DNA of 34,722 nt from a bacterium (GTDB taxonomy: Bacteria > SZUA-79 > Acidulodesulfobacterales > Acidulodesulfobacteraceae), in the NCBI GenBank assembly GCA_021811805.1, contig JAKAQA010000004.1, positions 1 to 34,722 on the forward strand, read 5' to 3'. This document shows positions 1,729-13,121 of the stretch, piece by piece; positions within the stretch are counted from its first letter, which is position 1; each line of letters begins with the position of its first letter. The notes beneath the pieces were generated by a model. The model made no database searches. It was not told the origin of the DNA and saw only the letters and a program-made list of their open reading frames with translations. The translations under genes and the position numbers were made by a program.

Positions 1729-2032
1729 ATATATTAATTCTTTACATGTTGCCAGAAGGTATTTTTTAAAAAGTATAAACATGCCTGATTAATAAAATTA
1801 ATAAATAAATTAAATAAAATTGAATATTTATAATTAAAAATACAACAATATTAAATAATTTTGTAAAGTTTATTACGGTTTTAGTTTAATATTTTTGCAA
1901 TTATATTAATTAAAAGTTTAAGTTAATCAATAAATAGGCATTGCATTTTAACTGGATGGTTATCATATAATACCAACATTGATAATTGATGAAATAAAGC
2001 AATATAAAAGTTTATTATATATTTATTACCCC

Positions 2033-3238
2033 CTATTTCTTAAATATATTGGGAATTCTCGGCATTCCTTGTCGCTGAATATAAAGAGAATATTTTTGTT
2101 GAATTTTCGTGATATAAGGTGGTAATAATCTGCCAATTCTTTTGTCACTAATAGCTTGCCATTTTTCTATACGAATATTCTTAAATTGAAAAGAAAATGT
2201 TTTTCCTTCAAACATTGAAAAGATAATGGATTCATTATCACCCTCCTTGAAATATCCATATTTCTTAATATAAATATCCTTTTCTTGTTTTTTTGAAAGC
2301 TTAGCCCCTTTTATCAAATATAATTCGACCTTTTGAAGTATATCGCATGTCGTACCGTTTCTTGGAATACAATCGCAATCAGGTCGTATATTTAAAAAGA
2401 TATCCCCTTTAATTTTAAATATATCTCCTGCTACAATTGTGTTTTCGTGTATTTTATCTTTATCAAGGAAACGTTCTCCAGTAAAAACTCTACGTGTTTC
2501 TTCTATGCTATTATTTTTATTTTTAGCCCTTCTTTTTATCATAGCAGAATCGAATTTAAAAGGGGTCATGCGGGTATGTAAATTACGCGAGATCATTTCT
2601 CCAAGTCCTGATGATACATTAATATCAATACCATCATCCGAAAACGATTTCCAAATGATTTTAGGCCAATTAGGATCTATTTCATAAAAGTTATGAAATA
2701 GATCTGTTTTAGCTTTCTCATATTCGCTTTCCCATACTTTAAGAACATAAACCGGCGGAGTGTGTTTTATCCAATCCTGTATAGCTTTAAAAAGACTGTT
2801 TTTTCCGGTAAGTTCAGATTTTTTTTTAATAAAAATATAATTTGGCTTATTTTCTTTATATAGCCCCTCTTCTTGAAGTTTTGAACTTACCTCATCTATA
2901 ACTTCATTTGTAAAAATAAAAACCGGGACAAAGCAAATATTTTTAAGATTTTTAAGGAAATTGGTATTAGCAGTGATATTAGTGTCGGCATATTTAGGAT
3001 TAATAACTCCTGCCATCGTATCTGCATCGCTCAAATCATTAAGATTCCAATCAAGCAAAATAAAAGAAATTCCTTTCCAATTTTTTATAACATCATCTTC
3101 AGGAATTTCACCATATTTTAAACAAGGCATTTTATGTTTTTCTATTTGACTAATAATTTGGTTTATATTAGCCTCATTTTTTTTAATCTCATCGTCAATT
3201 ACAACCGCAATGCCGGAAAACAAGTCATTTGTACTCAC
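2033..3238 (-). CDS. Receiver-domain (REC) protein with uncharacterised C-terminal region
   Basis: VVIDDE acidic pair, FILLDWNL phosphoacceptor-type Asp, VFIFTNE Thr position, YIFIKKKSEL Lys position; GTG start 1 nt after the stop of the upstream ATPase gene; no recognisable HTH output domain. Confidence 0.75.
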   Translation of the reverse strand: MSTNDLFSGIAVVIDDEIKKNEANINQIISQIEKHKMPCLKYGEIPEDDVIKNWKGISFILLDWNLNDLSDADTMAGVINPKYADTNITANTNFLKNLKNICFVPVFIFTNEVIDEVSSKLQEEGLYKENKPNYIFIKKKSELTGKNSLFKAIQDWIKHTPPVYVLKVWESEYEKAKTDLFHNFYEIDPNWPKIIWKSFSDDGIDINVSSGLGEMISRNLHTRMTPFKFDSAMIKRRAKNKNNSIEETRRVFTGERFLDKDKIHENTIVAGDIFKIKGDIFLNIRPDCDCIPRNGTTCDILQKVELYLIKGAKLSKKQEKDIYIKKYGYFKEGDNESIIFSMFEGKTFSFQFKNIRIEKWQAISDKRIGRLLPPYITKIQQKYSLYIQRQGMPRIPNIFKK

Positions 3239-3239
3239 T

Positions 3240-5501
3240 TTAGTCCTCCTTTTTAATGAAATTTATCACAAAATTTGCTCCGTTTAAAATTAAATCCCCG
3301 TTTAAGTCTGCAATTTCAATAGAATAATCATTTCTTTCAAGAAGCTGCCGTGCGATGTATAACCCTAAACCCCGACCGTCTTCCCCTTTTCCCGAATAGA
3401 ATGGTTCGAAAATATACGGAGCGTCATCCTTGTTTACACCGGGACCATTATCGGAAAAAATAAGTTTTCCGTAATTGCCGTCCATGGTTATCTCTATTTT
3501 TTTTTGTTTCTGCGCTGTTTGTTGTAGCCAATATATAGAGTTATCAAATAGATTAAGAAAAAGCTGGAGCAATACGGCATCCGTAGTTTTGGCGGTAAGG
3601 GGCGAACCTATTTCGTTGATGTCCAAATCAATACCTTCCTTTTTCAGTGAACGCTTATATATCCTTTCGACCTTCGCTATAACTTCTTTAACCCTTATTT
3701 CCCGCCTTCTTTGTTTTGATGATTTAAACAATAACTGGATATCTTTCAACTGCGTTTCCACAAAAGAAAGCATCCCTCTAAGGGACTGCATTTCTTTTTG
3801 CAGTTCTTCTCTATCTAAATCTGCACCGCTTAACATGTCTGAAATTAACGCATCTATAGCGGACATAGCTTTGCCCATCATAGCCATTATGTCATGAGAT
3901 GCAGTCTCTACGGAAAGTCCTACGCCAGCTAGCTCCTCCGTCGTCTCTGCCCGTTGAACGAGATACCTGCGTTCGATGCTGTATTCTTTCTCAATTTTAG
4001 CGGCCAGATTAAGCGCTTCATGCTTTTCTTGAACGATTTTTTTTAATTGCTCAATGTCTTCGCGAATCTGTTCAGTTCTGAAAACATCTTGGGCATTTTT
4101 ATCTTTAAGTTGCTCCTTATATTGGGCATAAGGCTTCTGTCTGATATAAGAAAGAATTATCCGCAGAAGGGCGATAAAGTCTCCTGTTGCATTGCCTTCG
4201 TCTATAAGTCCTTCGCGATTAGTTTTATCTTTAAGATTAGGATTTTCTTTTTGGGATATTTTAATAAATCCGACAACCTGGTCGTTGCTCAAAAAATCTC
4301 CAGCACTTATAGTTCCACGTTGCATATCAATTTTCAGCCAATCATCATCCTTTTCTCCGTAAGGATATACCCTAATACCGTCACGGTAAAGATATATACG
4401 ATGATCTTTTATTATTTTTTTATCTTCCTTATCTAATTGGAATTTAGGTGGCGCCTGCGGCGTAAGATCGAAAACAAAAAAGTCGAATTTAAAAGAGCCG
4501 CAATCGGTTTTAATTTCATTGAGCATCCCCTTTATGTCTCCGAAACGTTCCTTAAACCATTCTCTAAAAATTTTTAATCCTTTTATTTCGGTACTGCTGA
4601 GTTTTAATATTTTTTCAACCCCGTTTAATAAGAATCTGAATTCCGCATTTTGTTCGTCATAGATGCCGCTTTTTATCTCTATAACCGATTTTTCTTCCAG
4701 AATAAATCTCAACTTATTTAAATAATCTTCGCGAAAATTTTGATATTCTTTGTCTTTATATATATAAACCTTGAATGAATCTTTATTGCTTTCTTCTGTT
4801 TTATCCTCTAAATCTGTATCAAAAAAAATTGTTTCCAACTTTTCAAGATCGTAGTATAGATTTTTTACCTTTTGCTCTGACCAACTACTTTTTAAATCGT
4901 ATATTTCAATTCGAGTTCCGTGCGATTCTCGCGACCTTTTTTGTATCTTTCCTAATGGAAAATAAGTTACTTTAATATTTTGCGGGGAGCGCTCCTCAAA
5001 ATCCACAGAAATGTCATCGATAAATAAAGTCTTATGCTCTCCATTTTCTGTAAGAAAATCATCGTCAAACTTAGAAAAATTAAAATCGACTACCCGTTCA
5101 ACATTTTCTCCTTTAGCCCTTGTGATAATTTTAATACGCCTGCCTAATTTCATTAAGGCAAAACGGCCAATTCCTTTTTCCCCCTGAATTACCCTACCTT
5201 TTTCGGTAGTATCTTTTACGGCTTTTCTCTGTAATTTTTCAGGGGTAGCGGGATTTAAGAAATGATTCTTTATTATATCAATCCCCATTCCAAAACCGTT
5301 ATCTTCTATAACAATATTTGAACAGGATAGAATTGAATAATTATCTATGAAATTATTAAAGGAGAGTTTTACCCATGTTGCATCAGCATCATATGAATTC
5401 TTAATTATTTCTATTAATGCAATGCGACTATCTTTTATCAACTGTTCGCCAAGCATCGTCAAAAGACGAGCATACGGCCTCATTTTTACTGTTTCACCCA
5501 T
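3240..5501 (-). CDS. Dual GHKL ATPase: MORC/HSP90-like N-terminal domain plus histidine-kinase-like DHp/HATPase C-terminal region
   Basis: N-terminal N-box EIIKNSYDADA, IEDNGFGM, GEKGIGRFA; C-terminal H-box-like ETASHDIMAMM, N-box LFLNLFDNSIYW, SDNGPGV, GRGLGLYIARQL. Confidence 0.85.
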   Translation of the reverse strand: MGETVKMRPYARLLTMLGEQLIKDSRIALIEIIKNSYDADATWVKLSFNNFIDNYSILSCSNIVIEDNGFGMGIDIIKNHFLNPATPEKLQRKAVKDTTEKGRVIQGEKGIGRFALMKLGRRIKIITRAKGENVERVVDFNFSKFDDDFLTENGEHKTLFIDDISVDFEERSPQNIKVTYFPLGKIQKRSRESHGTRIEIYDLKSSWSEQKVKNLYYDLEKLETIFFDTDLEDKTEESNKDSFKVYIYKDKEYQNFREDYLNKLRFILEEKSVIEIKSGIYDEQNAEFRFLLNGVEKILKLSSTEIKGLKIFREWFKERFGDIKGMLNEIKTDCGSFKFDFFVFDLTPQAPPKFQLDKEDKKIIKDHRIYLYRDGIRVYPYGEKDDDWLKIDMQRGTISAGDFLSNDQVVGFIKISQKENPNLKDKTNREGLIDEGNATGDFIALLRIILSYIRQKPYAQYKEQLKDKNAQDVFRTEQIREDIEQLKKIVQEKHEALNLAAKIEKEYSIERRYLVQRAETTEELAGVGLSVETASHDIMAMMGKAMSAIDALISDMLSGADLDREELQKEMQSLRGMLSFVETQLKDIQLLFKSSKQRRREIRVKEVIAKVERIYKRSLKKEGIDLDINEIGSPLTAKTTDAVLLQLFLNLFDNSIYWLQQTAQKQKKIEITMDGNYGKLIFSDNGPGVNKDDAPYIFEPFYSGKGEDGRGLGLYIARQLLERNDYSIEIADLNGDLILNGANFVINFIKKED

Positions 5502-6775
5502 TATTTCCTTCCTATTAAGATAAATTCCTCTGAATATATTTTCTTGTTGTTATGGTTTGAAGAAAATTTTCCGGATTTGTCGCGATATGGGGTTAAGGTT
5601 TTGCCGGTAATTTGTCTTTTTGTAACCATAATTTTTTTAAACCCGCTACTAAGTAAGGATTCGCATAAATGCTCAGCATTCTCAATCTTTACCCCCTTGT
5701 ATTCAGTATTTCCTATAACAAAAACCGCAGCCCCGCTGTCGGAAAGCATATAATAGCAGACATCCGCAACTTTCTGCATATCAAGGAAATATTTAGCAAC
5801 AGACCGGACTTTTGATTTAGCTCTATCATATAAACGCAAAACTACACCAGTGCCAGTGTTGTTTAATCGTTTCAGTTCTCTTTCGAAATTGTATTTATGG
5901 TAAAGGCTACCTATGGAACCAAAACGAAGGCTGTGGTAATCCTCGGCATAATCAAGCCATAAAGAAGATAGCTGATGCAAATCCGCATATTCGTACGATG
6001 TAACATAAGGAGGGCTGGTGATAATCATGTCAACTTTAGGTTTGCTTACCGATTTGTCTAAAAAGTTAGCTGTTTTTATTTCTATTTTTGGTTTCCCCGT
6101 TAAACCGCTTTCTTCGTTAGCGTCTATCATAAATTCGCATTGTTTTTTGAATATAGTTATAACATCAGTTGAATTCTTATTGGGATCTACCTGCGGTTTT
6201 ATTGATTTCGTTAGCCACCGCGAAGATGGTTTTAAAATATTTGAAAAAGCACAGAGAAAAAAAAGCTTATACCGGCTTCGGCTTGGTATAATGTTCTCAA
6301 TCGTGTATTTTAATCTAAAAATTTTTCCATACTGCTCTTTTTCATACCAATATTGTAATCTATCATTAGCCGTTTCATAATGACCGTTTTGATTTTTTAC
6401 GGTTGCATAGAAATTTAAAATTAAAAGCAAGTATTTTCTCAGCCGTTCAGTATCATACTTATCGCTTTTAACCTTGGCAATCATAGTTGCAACGGGATTT
6501 ATATCGCATCCCCAAAAATCGATATTGTTTCTTTTTGCTTCAAAAGCTACAGTGCCGCAACCGCAAAAGATATCAGCTATTTTGTTAACCACTATTTTAT
6601 TTTTCTTGGCATATGATAATGCTTTTGTAGTTAAAAATGCAGGAAATTTTGCGGGGTATGAATGAATCCGGTGCATTTTGAATTCTCTCTCTTCAACAAG
6701 ATTCCAAGATGGATCAGAAGGTATTTTGTTAAAATTAACTTTTCTAAAATCAGCACCTGATTCAATTTCAAACAT
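5501..6775 (-). CDS. DNA methyltransferase (N4-cytosine/N6-adenine type, TSPPY motif)
   Basis: Motif I IADIFCGCGTVAFEA, motif IV IITSPPYVTSYEYADL, HSYPAKFPAF N-terminal motif; TAATG overlap with the downstream ATPase gene. Confidence 0.85.
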   Translation of the reverse strand: MFEIESGADFRKVNFNKIPSDPSWNLVEEREFKMHRIHSYPAKFPAFLTTKALSYAKKNKIVVNKIADIFCGCGTVAFEAKRNNIDFWGCDINPVATMIAKVKSDKYDTERLRKYLLLILNFYATVKNQNGHYETANDRLQYWYEKEQYGKIFRLKYTIENIIPSRSRYKLFFLCAFSNILKPSSRWLTKSIKPQVDPNKNSTDVITIFKKQCEFMIDANEESGLTGKPKIEIKTANFLDKSVSKPKVDMIITSPPYVTSYEYADLHQLSSLWLDYAEDYHSLRFGSIGSLYHKYNFERELKRLNNTGTGVVLRLYDRAKSKVRSVAKYFLDMQKVADVCYYMLSDSGAAVFVIGNTEYKGVKIENAEHLCESLLSSGFKKIMVTKRQITGKTLTPYRDKSGKFSSNHNNKKIYSEEFILIGRK

Positions 6776-7031
6776 AATATTATGCTTATAATAGGGCGTA
6801 TAGAAATCTTTTATTTACATCGGCATTAATTTTGATATAATTAAAAATTTTATCAATAAATTATATTTAGGTCAAGGAAAATGAAATATTTTAAAGCAAT
6901 TTCGGCATTGCAAAATAAATAATTATCTTTAATGAATCTAATTTGTTGGGGTTAAAACGCCACTAATTTTTTAAATAAGTAATTTCCAGCAGTCATACTA
7001 GTTTTCCTCAAGCAATAATCAAAACAAGATT

Positions 7032-7119
7032 GTATATGCTAATTATAGTATGTAGAACGAAAATTAGGAAGAGCATATACTTATAATTACCTTAAAGTTA
7101 TGAATTTAATAAGTATATG
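7032..7119. promoter_or_regulatory. Putative C-protein operator region with three GTATATG/CATATAC half-sites
   Basis: GTATATGC 7032-7039; CATATACTTAT 7074-7084 is an exact 11-bp inverted repeat of ATAAGTATATG 7109-7119; the last arm contains the ATG of the HTH gene. Confidence 0.5.
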
Positions 7120-7332
7120 AGCAAAACAATACTAGAAAAATTTGGTGAACAAGTTCGCAAGGAAAGACATCAAAAAGGTTTTTCTCAAGAAGAGCTTGCC
7201 GCTAGAGCTGGTGTTCATCGCACCTATATCGGCATGATTGAAAGAGCGGAAAAAAATATTACACTAGAAAATATTGAAAAAGTCATAAAGGCTCTCGGTT
7301 TAAAAATATCGGATTTTTTTAAAGACTTTTAA
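7117..7332 (+). CDS. XRE/Cro-type HTH controller (C) protein of an R-M system
   Basis: 71 aa; FGEQVRKERHQKGFSQEELAARAGVHRTYIGMIERAEKNITLENIEKVIKALGL; 1-nt gap to the REase candidate. Confidence 0.85.
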   Translation: MSKTILEKFGEQVRKERHQKGFSQEELAARAGVHRTYIGMIERAEKNITLENIEKVIKALGLKISDFFKDF

Positions 7333-7333
7333 T

Positions 7334-8230
7334 ATGAATTATAAAGAATTCATTCAGAAAACAAGTCAAGAAATAAAATCTAATATTGTAGATTTAAGTG
7401 TTGAGCGCAAAAGAGGAAATGCTCCAACGCAGGCGTTTTCAAATTTCTTAACCCATAGCGAGCAGGGAGATTGGGCTGAAGTTTTATTTTTCAACGCTTT
7501 AAAAGAATCTGATTTAGCATGCATTCCCGTGCGATATGGAAGATCGGACAAAATTATTGCCGGCGACCCAAACTTTAAAGAATTTTATAACTCTTATCAA
7601 AACGAGCTTGATTTAATCGGAAAGCGTCCTGATATTTTATTGTTTAAATCTGACGATTATCGGAATGAATGGGGCAGCGACATTAGCAAATTGCCGATAG
7701 AAACATTAAAATCCATTGTCCCAAAAGCAATTGCTGGATTTGAAGTTAGATCAAGCGCATATCTGACAAAAAAGTTTGTTCCTAAAAAAAATAGACCTTT
7801 TTTGAGTTTTACTCCAAAAGTTGAAGATTTATTGGTAGTTTTAAAATGGATTGAAACATACGGCGTTCCGCATTTTTATGTTCAAATCTTTTTTGACGCG
7901 ATTTATATAATATCGTTTAAAGATATTTTATTATTATTAAGAAATGCTCAAATTGATGAGCGGGGAATCAAAAATAAAAAAATATTAGGGAAAATAGACA
8001 GTAACCCAGCCTTTGTTATTGAAAAAAATCCTAAGAACCAATACAAAGAAACTATTCATATCTATACAGACAGAGGAAAAATTTTAAGCGACAAAATAGA
8101 ATATCCAAAATTAGTTGGAAGTAAAAAAGAATTGGCGGGCGGGCGACTGCTTCATTATGTAAGTTTTGAAGGCGGAAAGGCGGAAATTAAAAAAGATGAA
8201 TTGCTTAAGCTTATCGCAGATAATTTTTAA
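7334..8230 (+). CDS. Type II restriction endonuclease candidate (possibly AccI-family)
   Basis: Cotranscribed with C protein; RPDILLFK ... GFEVRSSAY is consistent with a PD-(D/E)XK-like core; convergent with a cognate-type N6-adenine MTase. AccI-family assignment from recollection only. Confidence 0.6.
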   Translation: MNYKEFIQKTSQEIKSNIVDLSVERKRGNAPTQAFSNFLTHSEQGDWAEVLFFNALKESDLACIPVRYGRSDKIIAGDPNFKEFYNSYQNELDLIGKRPDILLFKSDDYRNEWGSDISKLPIETLKSIVPKAIAGFEVRSSAYLTKKFVPKKNRPFLSFTPKVEDLLVVLKWIETYGVPHFYVQIFFDAIYIISFKDILLLLRNAQIDERGIKNKKILGKIDSNPAFVIEKNPKNQYKETIHIYTDRGKILSDKIEYPKLVGSKKELAGGRLLHYVSFEGGKAEIKKDELLKLIADNF

Positions 8231-9815
8231 GTATCAAATCAGCTTTATTAACAATCCCAAGTCTATCTTTTTTATTGTTTTTAAAAATTTCTATCTGCAA
8301 TCTTCGCAATTCATCCAAGTCTTCTTTTTTTATAATCTCAAAGTCCAATATTAGTGTTTTATTTAAATCGTTTGGTTCAAATTTCTCTAATCCATTTCCG
8401 TATTCTCTTTTCTCCCGGTCAAAAAGTTTTCTGGCAAATTCGGTATTAAGATAAATAAATAAAATATCTAAATAATTTTTCCCAAGTTCAGAAGGATAAA
8501 ATGAATGAAAGCAGGTGAGATTTTTACAATTGCTGTCGTTCCAAATAAATTTTAAACCATTTCGGCTGAAAACGGAAACCCATATTTTAGATACTTCTCT
8601 TTTTTCTATAGCATACCAAGGATTCCTATTTTTTGTTAAATATTTTTTGTGAATATTTTCCGATTCACCTTTTTTAATATATTTATTACAGATTTCATTC
8701 TCCAATTTTTGACCGTCAAAAAGATAAGTTTTTTTATTTTGTTCTACTAAGCGATTAAAATCATTTTTCGAAAATAATATATCTTTTATAAAATTTGCTT
8801 TTGTTATACAAGGGTATAGGCACCCATTGGGGATATTAAATTCTTCAACTTCTTTCGGCGTTAAAGTAAAATATTCATTTGAGCCTGTTGCAATTCCTCT
8901 TGAGAATTTTCCAATCTTTAAAAAAGAAATTAGGTTTTTCTCATCTTGTTTTTTATATTCGTTAAAATAATTTCTCCATTTTATTTTTGGATTTAAATCA
9001 TAATTATTCATCTGTTTCATCGGATATTCTTTTAAAAAATTAGATAGATTATTGAGTTGTTTAATATCCGAAATATTAAAAAAATTGACCGTAGAGCTTT
9101 TTTCGGGGTTCTTTTCCGCCAACATAATTAAAGATGTGGTAAGCGCATTATCAAAAACATTTTCTGTAAAATTAATATTTATTAGGTGTAGTGTTATTCC
9201 TGAAGCAACCAAATATTCCTTAATTTTTTCTCCATAATTTGCATTTAAAAATTCACTTGGAATAATAAACGCCAACTTCCCGCCATAGTTTAGAAGATTG
9301 ATTGATTTAATCAAAAACCAGCTATAAATATTATTTTGAATACTAAACTTAAAAAATGCTTTTGAACAAATTTTTTGGAAAATTTCCTCTTTATTTTTGA
9401 TAAAATGATGCTTATAATATGGAGGATTTGCAATTATTCCGTCATATTTTTTATCCCATGGGCTGGTAAGAAAATCTGATTCATTGATATTGACATTTAT
9501 TTTTAATTCGGAAACTATATTTTTTAATTCGGAAACTATATTTTTATCAATTTCCCAAAGGTCAAAATAAATATTTTTGCTTTTATTTCGATATTTTATT
9601 GTCCTTTCGAATATTCCTAATCCTGCAGCCGGATCAAGTATTGTTAAATTATCTTTTTTGGTATTCAAAATCCAATCGGCCATAAAACAGGCAATATTAA
9701 AAGGTGTAAAAAATTGTCCAAAAGAACGACGATATTTAATATCCGTTTTTGACAAATAGTTGTTTTCTAATTCGTTATCATAATTCGTTATCATAAAATC
9801 GTAATATTTTTCCAT
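8211..9815 (-). CDS. Type II N6-adenine DNA methyltransferase
   Basis: RRSFGQFFTPFNIACFMADWIL, LDPAAGLGIFE motif I, IIANPPYYKHHF motif IV; adjacent to C-R operon. Confidence 0.88.
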   Translation of the reverse strand: MEKYYDFMITNYDNELENNYLSKTDIKYRRSFGQFFTPFNIACFMADWILNTKKDNLTILDPAAGLGIFERTIKYRNKSKNIYFDLWEIDKNIVSELKNIVSELKINVNINESDFLTSPWDKKYDGIIANPPYYKHHFIKNKEEIFQKICSKAFFKFSIQNNIYSWFLIKSINLLNYGGKLAFIIPSEFLNANYGEKIKEYLVASGITLHLININFTENVFDNALTTSLIMLAEKNPEKSSTVNFFNISDIKQLNNLSNFLKEYPMKQMNNYDLNPKIKWRNYFNEYKKQDEKNLISFLKIGKFSRGIATGSNEYFTLTPKEVEEFNIPNGCLYPCITKANFIKDILFSKNDFNRLVEQNKKTYLFDGQKLENEICNKYIKKGESENIHKKYLTKNRNPWYAIEKREVSKIWVSVFSRNGLKFIWNDSNCKNLTCFHSFYPSELGKNYLDILFIYLNTEFARKLFDREKREYGNGLEKFEPNDLNKTLILDFEIIKKEDLDELRRLQIEIFKNNKKDRLGIVNKADLILKNYLR

Positions 9816-9971
9816 TTATTCCGTCCTTTCCTGTCAATTATAGGCAAAGGTTCATTTAATTGATGTTTTTTGACGCGGTGCTTATAAGCATTATACTGCC
9901 AAATGACGAATTTTTCCATCAATTCGGCGTTCTTAATTCTTCACAGTTTTTATTAATGGTTATTAATAAAA

Positions 9972-9994
9972 AAGCCCTTAAATTTCAAGGGCTT
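9972..9994 (-). terminator. Rho-independent terminator for ssb (minus strand)
   Basis: AAGCCCTT-aaatttc-AAGGGCTT stem; minus-strand reading is followed by a T-run. Confidence 0.65.
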
Positions 9995-10031
9995 ATAAAC
10001 TATATCTTTACATTTTGTTATAAGGTAAGGG

Positions 10032-10812: not shown

Positions 10813-11343
10813 ATGATCAGGAATAAGGGCCTATTAATAAAAAACCGCAGCGGCGCTTCTCTGCTGGAGGTTATGATCGCTATGGTTATTCTTACCGTCG
10901 GGTTTCTGGGAGTAATGGCTCTGGCAGTCGCCCTTACAAATAACAATGCTACGGCCGGCAAGATAAATACGGCTACGGCTATAGCGCAGGCCGAGGTGAG
11001 CCAGCTAAACTGCCTTGGGGTCAGCGGAATTAATAATAATTTAGCAAATTGGGGCATTGCCGCTCTACCAGGGACTTACACTTACACTGTTTCTCCAGTC
11101 GTATTGAATCCCGATTCTAGAAATTCGGTAAAGTCCTGTATAAATTCAGCTTTGACAGTAGGAGGTTCGGCGCCGGATTCTCCTGCACCTACAGGACTTG
11201 GCGTTACTCTTCCTTACACCGTTACAATCAATCTTTCCAATAATCCGAATCCTGCATCTACAACCGTAATAAATGCACAGGTTGAAGTCGGCTGGCAGGA
11301 TACGGGACAGCATCTTATAATAATGAACGATTTAATTTCATAA
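10813..11343 (+). CDS. pilV: PilV-like type IV minor pilin
   Basis: Prepilin motif GASLLEVMIAMVILTVGFLGVMAL; first gene of minor pilin cluster. Confidence 0.75.
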   Translation: MIRNKGLLIKNRSGASLLEVMIAMVILTVGFLGVMALAVALTNNNATAGKINTATAIAQAEVSQLNCLGVSGINNNLANWGIAALPGTYTYTVSPVVLNPDSRNSVKSCINSALTVGGSAPDSPAPTGLGVTLPYTVTINLSNNPNPASTTVINAQVEVGWQDTGQHLIIMNDLIS

Positions 11344-11363
11344 CTATTTGAAAAATTAACGCC

Positions 11364-12554
11364 ATGAGTAAAAAAATAAATTTTAATAAAAATAGACCGG
11401 TAGGGGTTTTAAAGAATAATAAAGGTTTGACGGCGGTCGAACTCATAATAGCCCTGGCAATTTCCGTGATAGTAGTCGCGGCGGCAGGATTCATTTTACT
11501 GACCCAATCAGGCGTAATAAGATTTAACAGGTCTGTTTCGACCGAACAGCAAAGATTGAATACGGCATTCAATACCGTAAGATATTCGCTGCGTATGGCG
11601 GGATTCGATTATGGAAACGGTTATTATGCTTATTCCCAAGGGAATCCCGTACCGTCGGTTCAAGTCGTCAGCGCGGCATACCCAAGCAATCCATACGAGG
11701 TTTTAGTCAGTTACAGCGCCTTAGTTAACGGTTCCAGCCCCTGTGTTTTAACGCCTAACGCAAATTCGAACTCAAACTCGGCATCCGCACGATTTAACTT
11801 ATGTGCCAACCCAAACGTTCCCTGCTCTTGCAACATTAATAACTTTTATATAGGTCAGGTTATTAATGTTGAGAACCCGACGCCCCTTAATAATAATCCG
11901 CTTCCTGCCGCACCGATAACTTTTTGCGTTACAAACGTGTTAACTAATTCTAACGCTATAGTAGTAAATCCAGGCAACGGAAATAATCCCTGCGGCACTA
12001 ATAATCCTGTGCCGCCGAAAAGCATAGGCGGCGGAAACGTATCTTCCATAAATCAAATTTTATTTTATTGGGGAAATACCTCATATAATTTTAATGCTCC
12101 GTTCGATGTCCCGGGTAATTTATACGAGTGTACGTTGAGCAAGATATTCATAGAGCCGCCGGCGCCTGGAGCAGGCGGCGCATATACGCCGCCGCAATGT
12201 TCAAATACGATTACCCTCAGCGATTATATTAATAATTTTGCGGTTGCGCCTGAAGGATATAATTTTAACGGCCCGATGTCATATTACATAACTTCTACTT
12301 CGCCTGCCGGGCAAATTCAAGTTTATTACAGCAACGGCACAAATCAGTCGGAGCCTCCCTACTTAAATTTGTCCGTTACCGGCGAGTCTAACGTAGCGCT
12401 GTCCGATTCTCCGGCTTACAGCGTTAACGTGCCTTATAATTCTAATGCAGGCGGGGTCGGGGCTAAAGGAAACGCCGGTCAAATCGTAGGCAATAATGTT
12501 TTGAAAACGTTAAACTCAAGCCTATTTTTAAGGAACCTCTATTACGGCAGTTAA
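11364..12554 (+). CDS. pilW: PilW-like type IV minor pilin
   Basis: Prepilin motif KGLTAVELIIALAISVIVVAAAGFILL followed by NTVRYSLRMAGFDYGN; position between pilV-like and pilX-like. Confidence 0.75.
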   Translation: MSKKINFNKNRPVGVLKNNKGLTAVELIIALAISVIVVAAAGFILLTQSGVIRFNRSVSTEQQRLNTAFNTVRYSLRMAGFDYGNGYYAYSQGNPVPSVQVVSAAYPSNPYEVLVSYSALVNGSSPCVLTPNANSNSNSASARFNLCANPNVPCSCNINNFYIGQVINVENPTPLNNNPLPAAPITFCVTNVLTNSNAIVVNPGNGNNPCGTNNPVPPKSIGGGNVSSINQILFYWGNTSYNFNAPFDVPGNLYECTLSKIFIEPPAPGAGGAYTPPQCSNTITLSDYINNFAVAPEGYNFNGPMSYYITSTSPAGQIQVYYSNGTNQSEPPYLNLSVTGESNVALSDSPAYSVNVPYNSNAGGVGAKGNAGQIVGNNVLKTLNSSLFLRNLYYGS

Positions 12555-12563
12555 TGCGATAAC

Positions 12564-13121
12564 ATGAAAAACAAAAATTTTATAAATATTATAACAAAAA
12601 ATAATCGGGGAATAGCCCTTGTAACGGTAATATTGGTTATCGCAATTCTGGGCATATTAGCGGCGGTAGCAATAGAAACAACCGGCACCGATATTCTAAA
12701 CGCCGGAAACTATACGTCGTCCGAGCAGACCTTAAATATATCTAACTCGGCTATGAATATCGTGCTTGCCCAGTTAAATACGAGCCAGCAGACCAATACG
12801 GGAATAGGCATGCCGTCTCCAAGTATATATTATTATACTATAAGCGGCAATAATACGGTACAGCAAAGTCCTACTTATATAGGATTGACCGCCGCAAATA
12901 TAAATTCTAATTTTTCGAACGCTTTAGGATTTGCTAACAACAGCGGTTCATTCGGTTTTGAGTACGAGGGGGTTTATGGGGGCGTTCCTGGATACAGCCT
13001 TAATTACCATTTTTATAACGGGCAGATAAACACTATAACCCAAAACCAAAACGGCTCAAAAACCGTTCAGACCGGAATGACTTTCAGTTACGGACCTATT
13101 CAGGTGGGATACAACCAGTAA
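12564..13121 (+). CDS. PilX-like pilus assembly protein
   Basis: NRGIALVTVILVIAILGILAAVAIETTGTDILNAGNY; located between pilW-like and pilY1-like. Confidence 0.65.
   Translation: MKNKNFINIITKNNRGIALVTVILVIAILGILAAVAIETTGTDILNAGNYTSSEQTLNISNSAMNIVLAQLNTSQQTNTGIGMPSPSIYYYTISGNNTVQQSPTYIGLTAANINSNFSNALGFANNSGSFGFEYEGVYGGVPGYSLNYHFYNGQINTITQNQNGSKTVQTGMTFSYGPIQVGYNQ

Follow-up and report, generated by a model that had tools for sequence, protein, structure and literature searches.

Genes and features of the locus

The stretch of DNA analysed here (the window; 34,722 nucleotides, contig JAKAQA010000004.1 of assembly GCA_021811805.1, from a member of the Acidulodesulfobacteraceae) contains three adjoining genes on the minus strand, for a DNA methyltransferase, a histidine kinase with two GHKL ATPase domains and a receiver protein (Table 1). 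A TAATG overlap at position 5501 joins the methyltransferase and kinase genes, and a gap of one nucleotide at 3239 separates the kinase and receiver genes. The initial annotation had described these genes as translationally coupled; the open reading frames, the overlap and the gap were exact when read in the sequence, as were the positions of the TSPPY motif (residues 253–257 of the methyltransferase), the H-box histidine of the kinase (His536, codon 3894–3896) and the receiver aspartate (Asp63, codon 3050–3052). Asp15/Asp16, Thr110 and Lys140 are all present in the receiver. The assignment of the proteins as an SPPY methyltransferase, a GHKL plus DHp-HATPase kinase and a REC protein was likewise upheld, by Pfam for the methyltransferase (N6_N4_Mtase, 3.8e-13) and the kinase (HATPase_c_3, 6.5e-19; HATPase_c, 7e-17), and by AlphaFold and Foldseek for the receiver.

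Table 1. Positions of the genes and other features in the window.
Feature	Position	Strand	Basis or remark
Acquired island (trio plus AccI-type R-M system)	1748–10031 (~8.3 kb, approximate borders)		empty site in sister genome
Predicted effector/output domain of the receiver, residues ~257–401, with GDIF and N-x-R-P-x-C-D motifs	2033–2470	(-)	structure prediction, alignment
Receiver protein, 401 aa, GTG start	2033–3238	(-)	AlphaFold, Foldseek, alignment
Dual-GHKL histidine kinase, 753 aa	3240–5501	(-)	Pfam, AlphaFold/Foldseek, alignment
DNA methyltransferase, N6_N4_Mtase/SPPY type, 424 aa	5501–6775	(-)	motif I FCGCG (residues 70–74) before SPPY (254–257)
HTH (XRE-like) protein, 71 aa	7117–7332	(+)	translation; directly upstream of AccI-type REase, divergent from trio
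AccI-type restriction endonuclease	7334–8230	(+)	RE_AccI 3.7e-79 (Pfam)
Eco57I-type DNA methyltransferase, partner of AccI-type REase	8211–9815	(-)	family search; overlaps REase 3' end by 20 bases

The island to which the trio belongs has an oxidoreductase gene on one side and ssb on the other. A sister genome has these two genes, whose products are 99% and 96% identical to those of the window, about 180 bp apart with nothing between them. Since this genome has the empty site, since the GC content is low over most of the island, and since a close kinase was found in only one of 30 genomes of the phylum, namely the present one (a remote relative occurs in one more), the island was acquired, and recently. 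A short imperfect direct repeat is found at its ends (~1740–1760, CTTTACATGTTG; ~9995–10015, CTTTACATTTTG) and is compatible with an insertion footprint. Outside the island, downstream of ssb, open reading frames at 10813–13121 have type IV pilin-like N-termini (GASLLEVMIAM, GLTAVELIIAL, GIALVTVILVI).

The type II R-M system which had been noted beside the trio is real, to judge from the family matches of both enzymes, with the 71-aa HTH protein alongside; the latter probably does not belong to the trio proper. No homologue of the AccI-type endonuclease was present at other trio loci, and therefore its position beside the trio is probably incidental. For the same reason a role of the trio as control circuit of this particular R-M system was rejected.

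Distribution and co-divergence of the three genes

A profile made from three receiver sequences was used to scan 85,462 genomes and yielded 22 loci from at least six phyla, with representatives in Verrucomicrobia, Pseudomonadota, Holophagales (Acidobacteriota), Bacteroidota, Cloacimonadota and Bacillota. Each of the 19 loci with enough flanking sequence (L015–L023 and L025–L034; the methylase of L034 is cut by a contig end, as are the other three loci) has all three genes, which adjoin or overlap each other in an unchanged order. Since the loci had been retrieved with the receiver alone, the co-occurrence of kinase and methylase is an independent observation. Thus, the genes are kept together elsewhere, and the proposal that methylase, kinase and receiver form one unit gains from this conservation and from the co-divergence of kinase and receiver, whose distances were strongly correlated (r = 0.89, Mantel p ≤ 0.0005). 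Methylase distances correlated weakly with those of kinase and receiver (r of 0.41 and 0.51) and were not tracked by the distances of the C-terminal barrel of the receiver (0.12). The signalling pair is therefore the core of the system, with the methylase being exchanged or diverging more freely.

A second SPPY-type methylase is located on the opposite strand beside the trio in eight loci (L009, L016, L019, L021, L022, L026, L028, L031). It is adjoined in L016, L026 and L028 by a small homologous open reading frame, the L016 copy of which encodes an HTH_3 protein, as R-M controller genes do. No other recurrent genes were found near the trio, and ten nearby open reading frames from other trio loci had no function in common; a constant fourth gene was thus rejected, with only the second methylase and the small reading frame (HTH where scanned) recurring. 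A cognate restriction endonuclease within the trio was found neither by domain searches nor by gene recurrence across trio loci, which agrees with the earlier remark that the operon contains no conventional nuclease: no linked nuclease gene or domain recurs. The trio is also carried by a conjugative plasmid of Allorhizobium (43/50/34% identity) and by a fecal scaffold of 6.2 kb that bears the label Bacteriophage sp.; many of the loci are situated on long chromosomal contigs.

Kinase, receiver and the predicted output domain

The kinase consists of a MORC/HSP90-like ATPase with a transducer region (about residues 1–430), a coiled coil, a DHp domain with His536 and a C-terminal HATPase. In the AlphaFold model (20-sequence alignment, mean pLDDT 77) the C-terminus resembles DHp and CA domains of the HK853 type, and the N-terminus resembles the ATPase modules of SMCHD1 and HSP90. 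His536 and the N- and G-box residues of both ATPases were invariant in 20/20 kinases. The N-terminal ~250 residues match NF050001, the model for the BbrUII/HgiDII restriction enzyme, with 1.6e-16, which is far below the cut-off of that model; the match was obtained with all 20 kinases, and the PADLOC model REase_II matched the GHKL module in 12 of them. A kinship of the GHKL module with R-M enzymes, as had been suggested, is therefore supported.

For the receiver protein no Pfam receiver model matched, nor did any other Pfam model significantly; sequence searches of the PDB with methyltransferase and receiver, and of PHROGs with the receiver, gave nothing informative. Its AlphaFold model (22-sequence alignment, mean pLDDT 76, pTM 0.47) shows a (beta-alpha)5 fold with Asp63 in residues 1–160, for which Foldseek retrieved CheY-like receivers, a helical linker (161–256; poorly predicted around 203–240) and, in residues 257–401, a beta barrel plus C-terminal helix, which are predicted well. 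The phosphorylation-site residues had been described as intact; Asp15, Asp63 and Lys140 were indeed invariant in 22/22 receivers, but the second acidic residue (D in 16, N in five and E in one) and the Thr position (Thr or Ser) vary. Together with the H-box His and the catalytic ATPase boxes, the receiver Asp and Lys make up a conserved set of two-component hallmarks.

Searching the PDB with the receiver model by Foldseek gave several chains of Escherichia coli MazF (TM by target 0.65–0.69, E-values 4e-3 to 1.3e-2), the other top matches being receivers or similar Rossmann-like folds. In an independent search of viral structures, a PemK-like protein ranked first (E = 7.5e-4) and a phage PemK/MazF toxin second (1.4e-3), with further PemK-like proteins lower in the same list. 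Judging by fold class and by the succession of strands and helices, we infer that these matches belong to the C-terminal barrel, which is thus predicted to have a MazF/PemK fold. The suggestion of an effector in the C-terminus of the REC protein is in line with this model: a predicted output domain is situated there, with a predicted MazF/PemK-like fold. At the sequence level homology to MazF was rejected, since profile-profile comparison (hhalign) of the receiver with PemK_toxin/MazF sequences was negative; PF02452 did not match any of the 22 receivers at E ≤ 0.5, and no counterpart of the usual catalytic Arg/Thr pair of MazF was evident in the barrel. The resemblance to the toxins of the MazF/PemK (CcdB-fold) type would lie in predicted fold and strand-helix order, whereas the barrel differs from them in being fused to a receiver, in not being paired with an antitoxin, and in sequence profile and catalytic residues.

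In the alignment, residues D272, N283, R285, C288, R370, P374 and R389 of the barrel were invariant, and D289 nearly so. The Cys-Asp pair was also invariant in eleven receivers of the PF19192 type (at least six have P-x-C-D) and is present in a relative from Campylobacter. Because of this distribution it is probably a functional site common to the trio and the PF19192-type receivers.

Relation to known systems and possible function

Bellieny-Rabelo et al. (2021; PMC8011034) described HEF_HK kinases encoded beside Response_reg_2 receivers (91.6% linked) in 628 strains, mostly with C5 methylases and enriched near R-M genes; N6/N4 methylases appear in the neighbourhood network. They connected the kinases with the paraMORC ATPases described by Iyer et al. 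(2008; PMC2292703). The receiver proteins showed them no further domain of a known type, and a control of R-M systems was offered as speculation. The general combination of HEF_HK, Response_reg_2 and methylase is therefore already published, as a prediction (PMC8011034). No later experimental study was found among the open-access papers that the search covered.

The trio shares with these systems (PF19191/PF19192) a soluble kinase with HATPase_c_3, H-box or DHp, and HATPase_c beside the gene for a divergent receiver, a methylase, R-M-rich contexts and the C-terminal Cys-Asp motif; hhalign of the trio receiver with Response_reg_2 members (11 receivers, ten from PF19192 hits) gave a probability of 97.3 and an E-value of 2.3e-11 over the receiver. 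Filing the trio under PF19191/PF19192 was rejected, since neither model matched the window kinase and receiver at E ≤ 1, nor did any of the 22 receivers match. It differs further in its methylase, which is always present and of the N6/N4 type instead of mostly C5, in the shorter receiver (~400 versus ~550–600 aa) and in that no Vsr partner was seen. It is also rarer: a sample of 399 genomes of Pseudomonadota had PF19192 in 11 and the trio sub-family in two, one of which was the centre genome of the sample. Given unmatched Pfam models and receiver homology at the profile level, the trio constitutes a distinct sub-family of the published kind. New in relation to the literature covered are this sub-family, its strict three-gene arrangement with a methylase of the N6/N4 type, and the predicted MazF-fold output domain; no description of the sub-family or the domain was found there.

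The kinase resembles the paraMORC ATPases (PMC2292703) and BbrUII/HgiDII (NF050001) in its N-terminal GHKL and transducer region and its linkage to a methylase; where those carry a C-terminal nuclease, TIR or other extension, the trio kinase has a histidine-kinase module and a separate receiver. PADLOC (2023) has no system model for the window kinase or receiver, and the combination is not catalogued there; one of the 22 receivers matched at E = 0.049, and for the kinases the overlap, with REase_II and PDC candidates, was confined to the GHKL part. In its proposed function the trio also resembles Detocs, a two-component-like phage defence with signalling from kinase to receiver for control of cell fate. 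Detocs is not known to have a methylase or a MORC-like GHKL module.

Remote relatives of the kinase adjoin receivers on Campylobacter plasmids, in a Stenotrophomonas record and in Acinetobacter. Most of 41 Campylobacter plasmid records contain a related kinase and response regulator with a convergent C5 methylase (e.g., L010, CP132133.1); some copies appear split in the annotation. The Stenotrophomonas record has a C5 methylase, the kinase and a REC-only protein. From the family of the window genome, another remote relative (L008) consists of a 900-aa kinase beside a 462-aa protein which starts with a receiver-like LIDD motif. At L011:8120–9450 a REC-only protein (212 aa) is followed by an unannotated 226-aa open reading frame with HGS and SCGTA motifs; a caspase/CHAT-like reading of the latter, made by eye, had no support from Pfam or PDB.

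We tentatively regard the trio as a mobile, R-M-like conflict system in which a phosphorelay replaces the nuclease step, a reading to which we give slightly less than an even chance. The methyltransferase would mark the host DNA, and this self-methylation would keep the GHKL module of the kinase quiet. A non-self or lost-protection state of the DNA, such as sites left unmethylated or a lost methylase, could be what the module responds to; the coiled coil may then relay the switch to the DHp-HATPase part, with autophosphorylation at His536 and phosphotransfer to the receiver at Asp63. This would free or activate the predicted MazF/PemK-fold domain and lead to growth arrest, either as abortive defence or, if the element is lost, as addiction. 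A more specific version is doubtful, namely methylation-gated immunity in which the MORC-like GHKL domain senses missing methylation or foreign DNA and a His-Asp relay de-represses the MazF-fold effector, so that R-M would signal instead of cut, with the same domain as output of the whole HEF_HK/Response_reg_2 superfamily.

The kinase and receiver might instead regulate the expression or activity of R-M genes in a methylation-linked manner, without deciding cell fate. This is the role on which the 2021 study speculated. That R-M genes are enriched around the relatives described there (PMC8011034), and that the AccI system adjoins the trio here, would fit it; however, neither the AlphaFold model nor the family search showed an HTH or any other DNA-binding domain as output of the receiver, no endonuclease recurs beside the trio elsewhere, and the trio is complete in itself and is transferred as one unit, so that we consider this explanation unlikely. 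Quite unlikely, too, is a mainly selfish maintenance function by post-segregational killing, in which, once the element is lost, the methylase would decay and leave DNA sites exposed, kinase and receiver would kill the cell, and phage defence would be secondary. The location on an acquired island here and on a conjugative plasmid in Allorhizobium, the relatives on many Campylobacter plasmids and a predicted barrel of the MazF/PemK fold, which is typical of plasmid addiction toxins, argue for it, but on the long chromosomal contigs of many loci a pressure for maintenance is less obvious.

If the C-terminal domain of the receiver, or the GHKL protein, were an unrecognised nuclease which is activated by phosphorylation and cuts unmethylated DNA, the trio would be a true restriction system. 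The relationship of the GHKL module to type II restriction enzymes points in this direction, and the conserved D272, N283, R285, C288 and D289 could form an active site. The receiver had no match to a nuclease family in Pfam, NCBIfam or PADLOC, however, and the known proteins of the MazF fold are RNases or gyrase poisons, not DNases; this possibility is considered improbable.

Should the proposed conflict system prove true, a single compact operon that is mobile would unite self-marking by DNA methylation with two-component signalling, and its receiver would carry an effector of toxin fold; phosphotransfer and growth arrest should then follow when methylation is lost. The uncharacterised HEF_HK/Response_reg_2 superfamily would gain a concrete candidate for its output domain, and bacterial MORC-like ATPases could then drive a signalling output, not just a nuclease.
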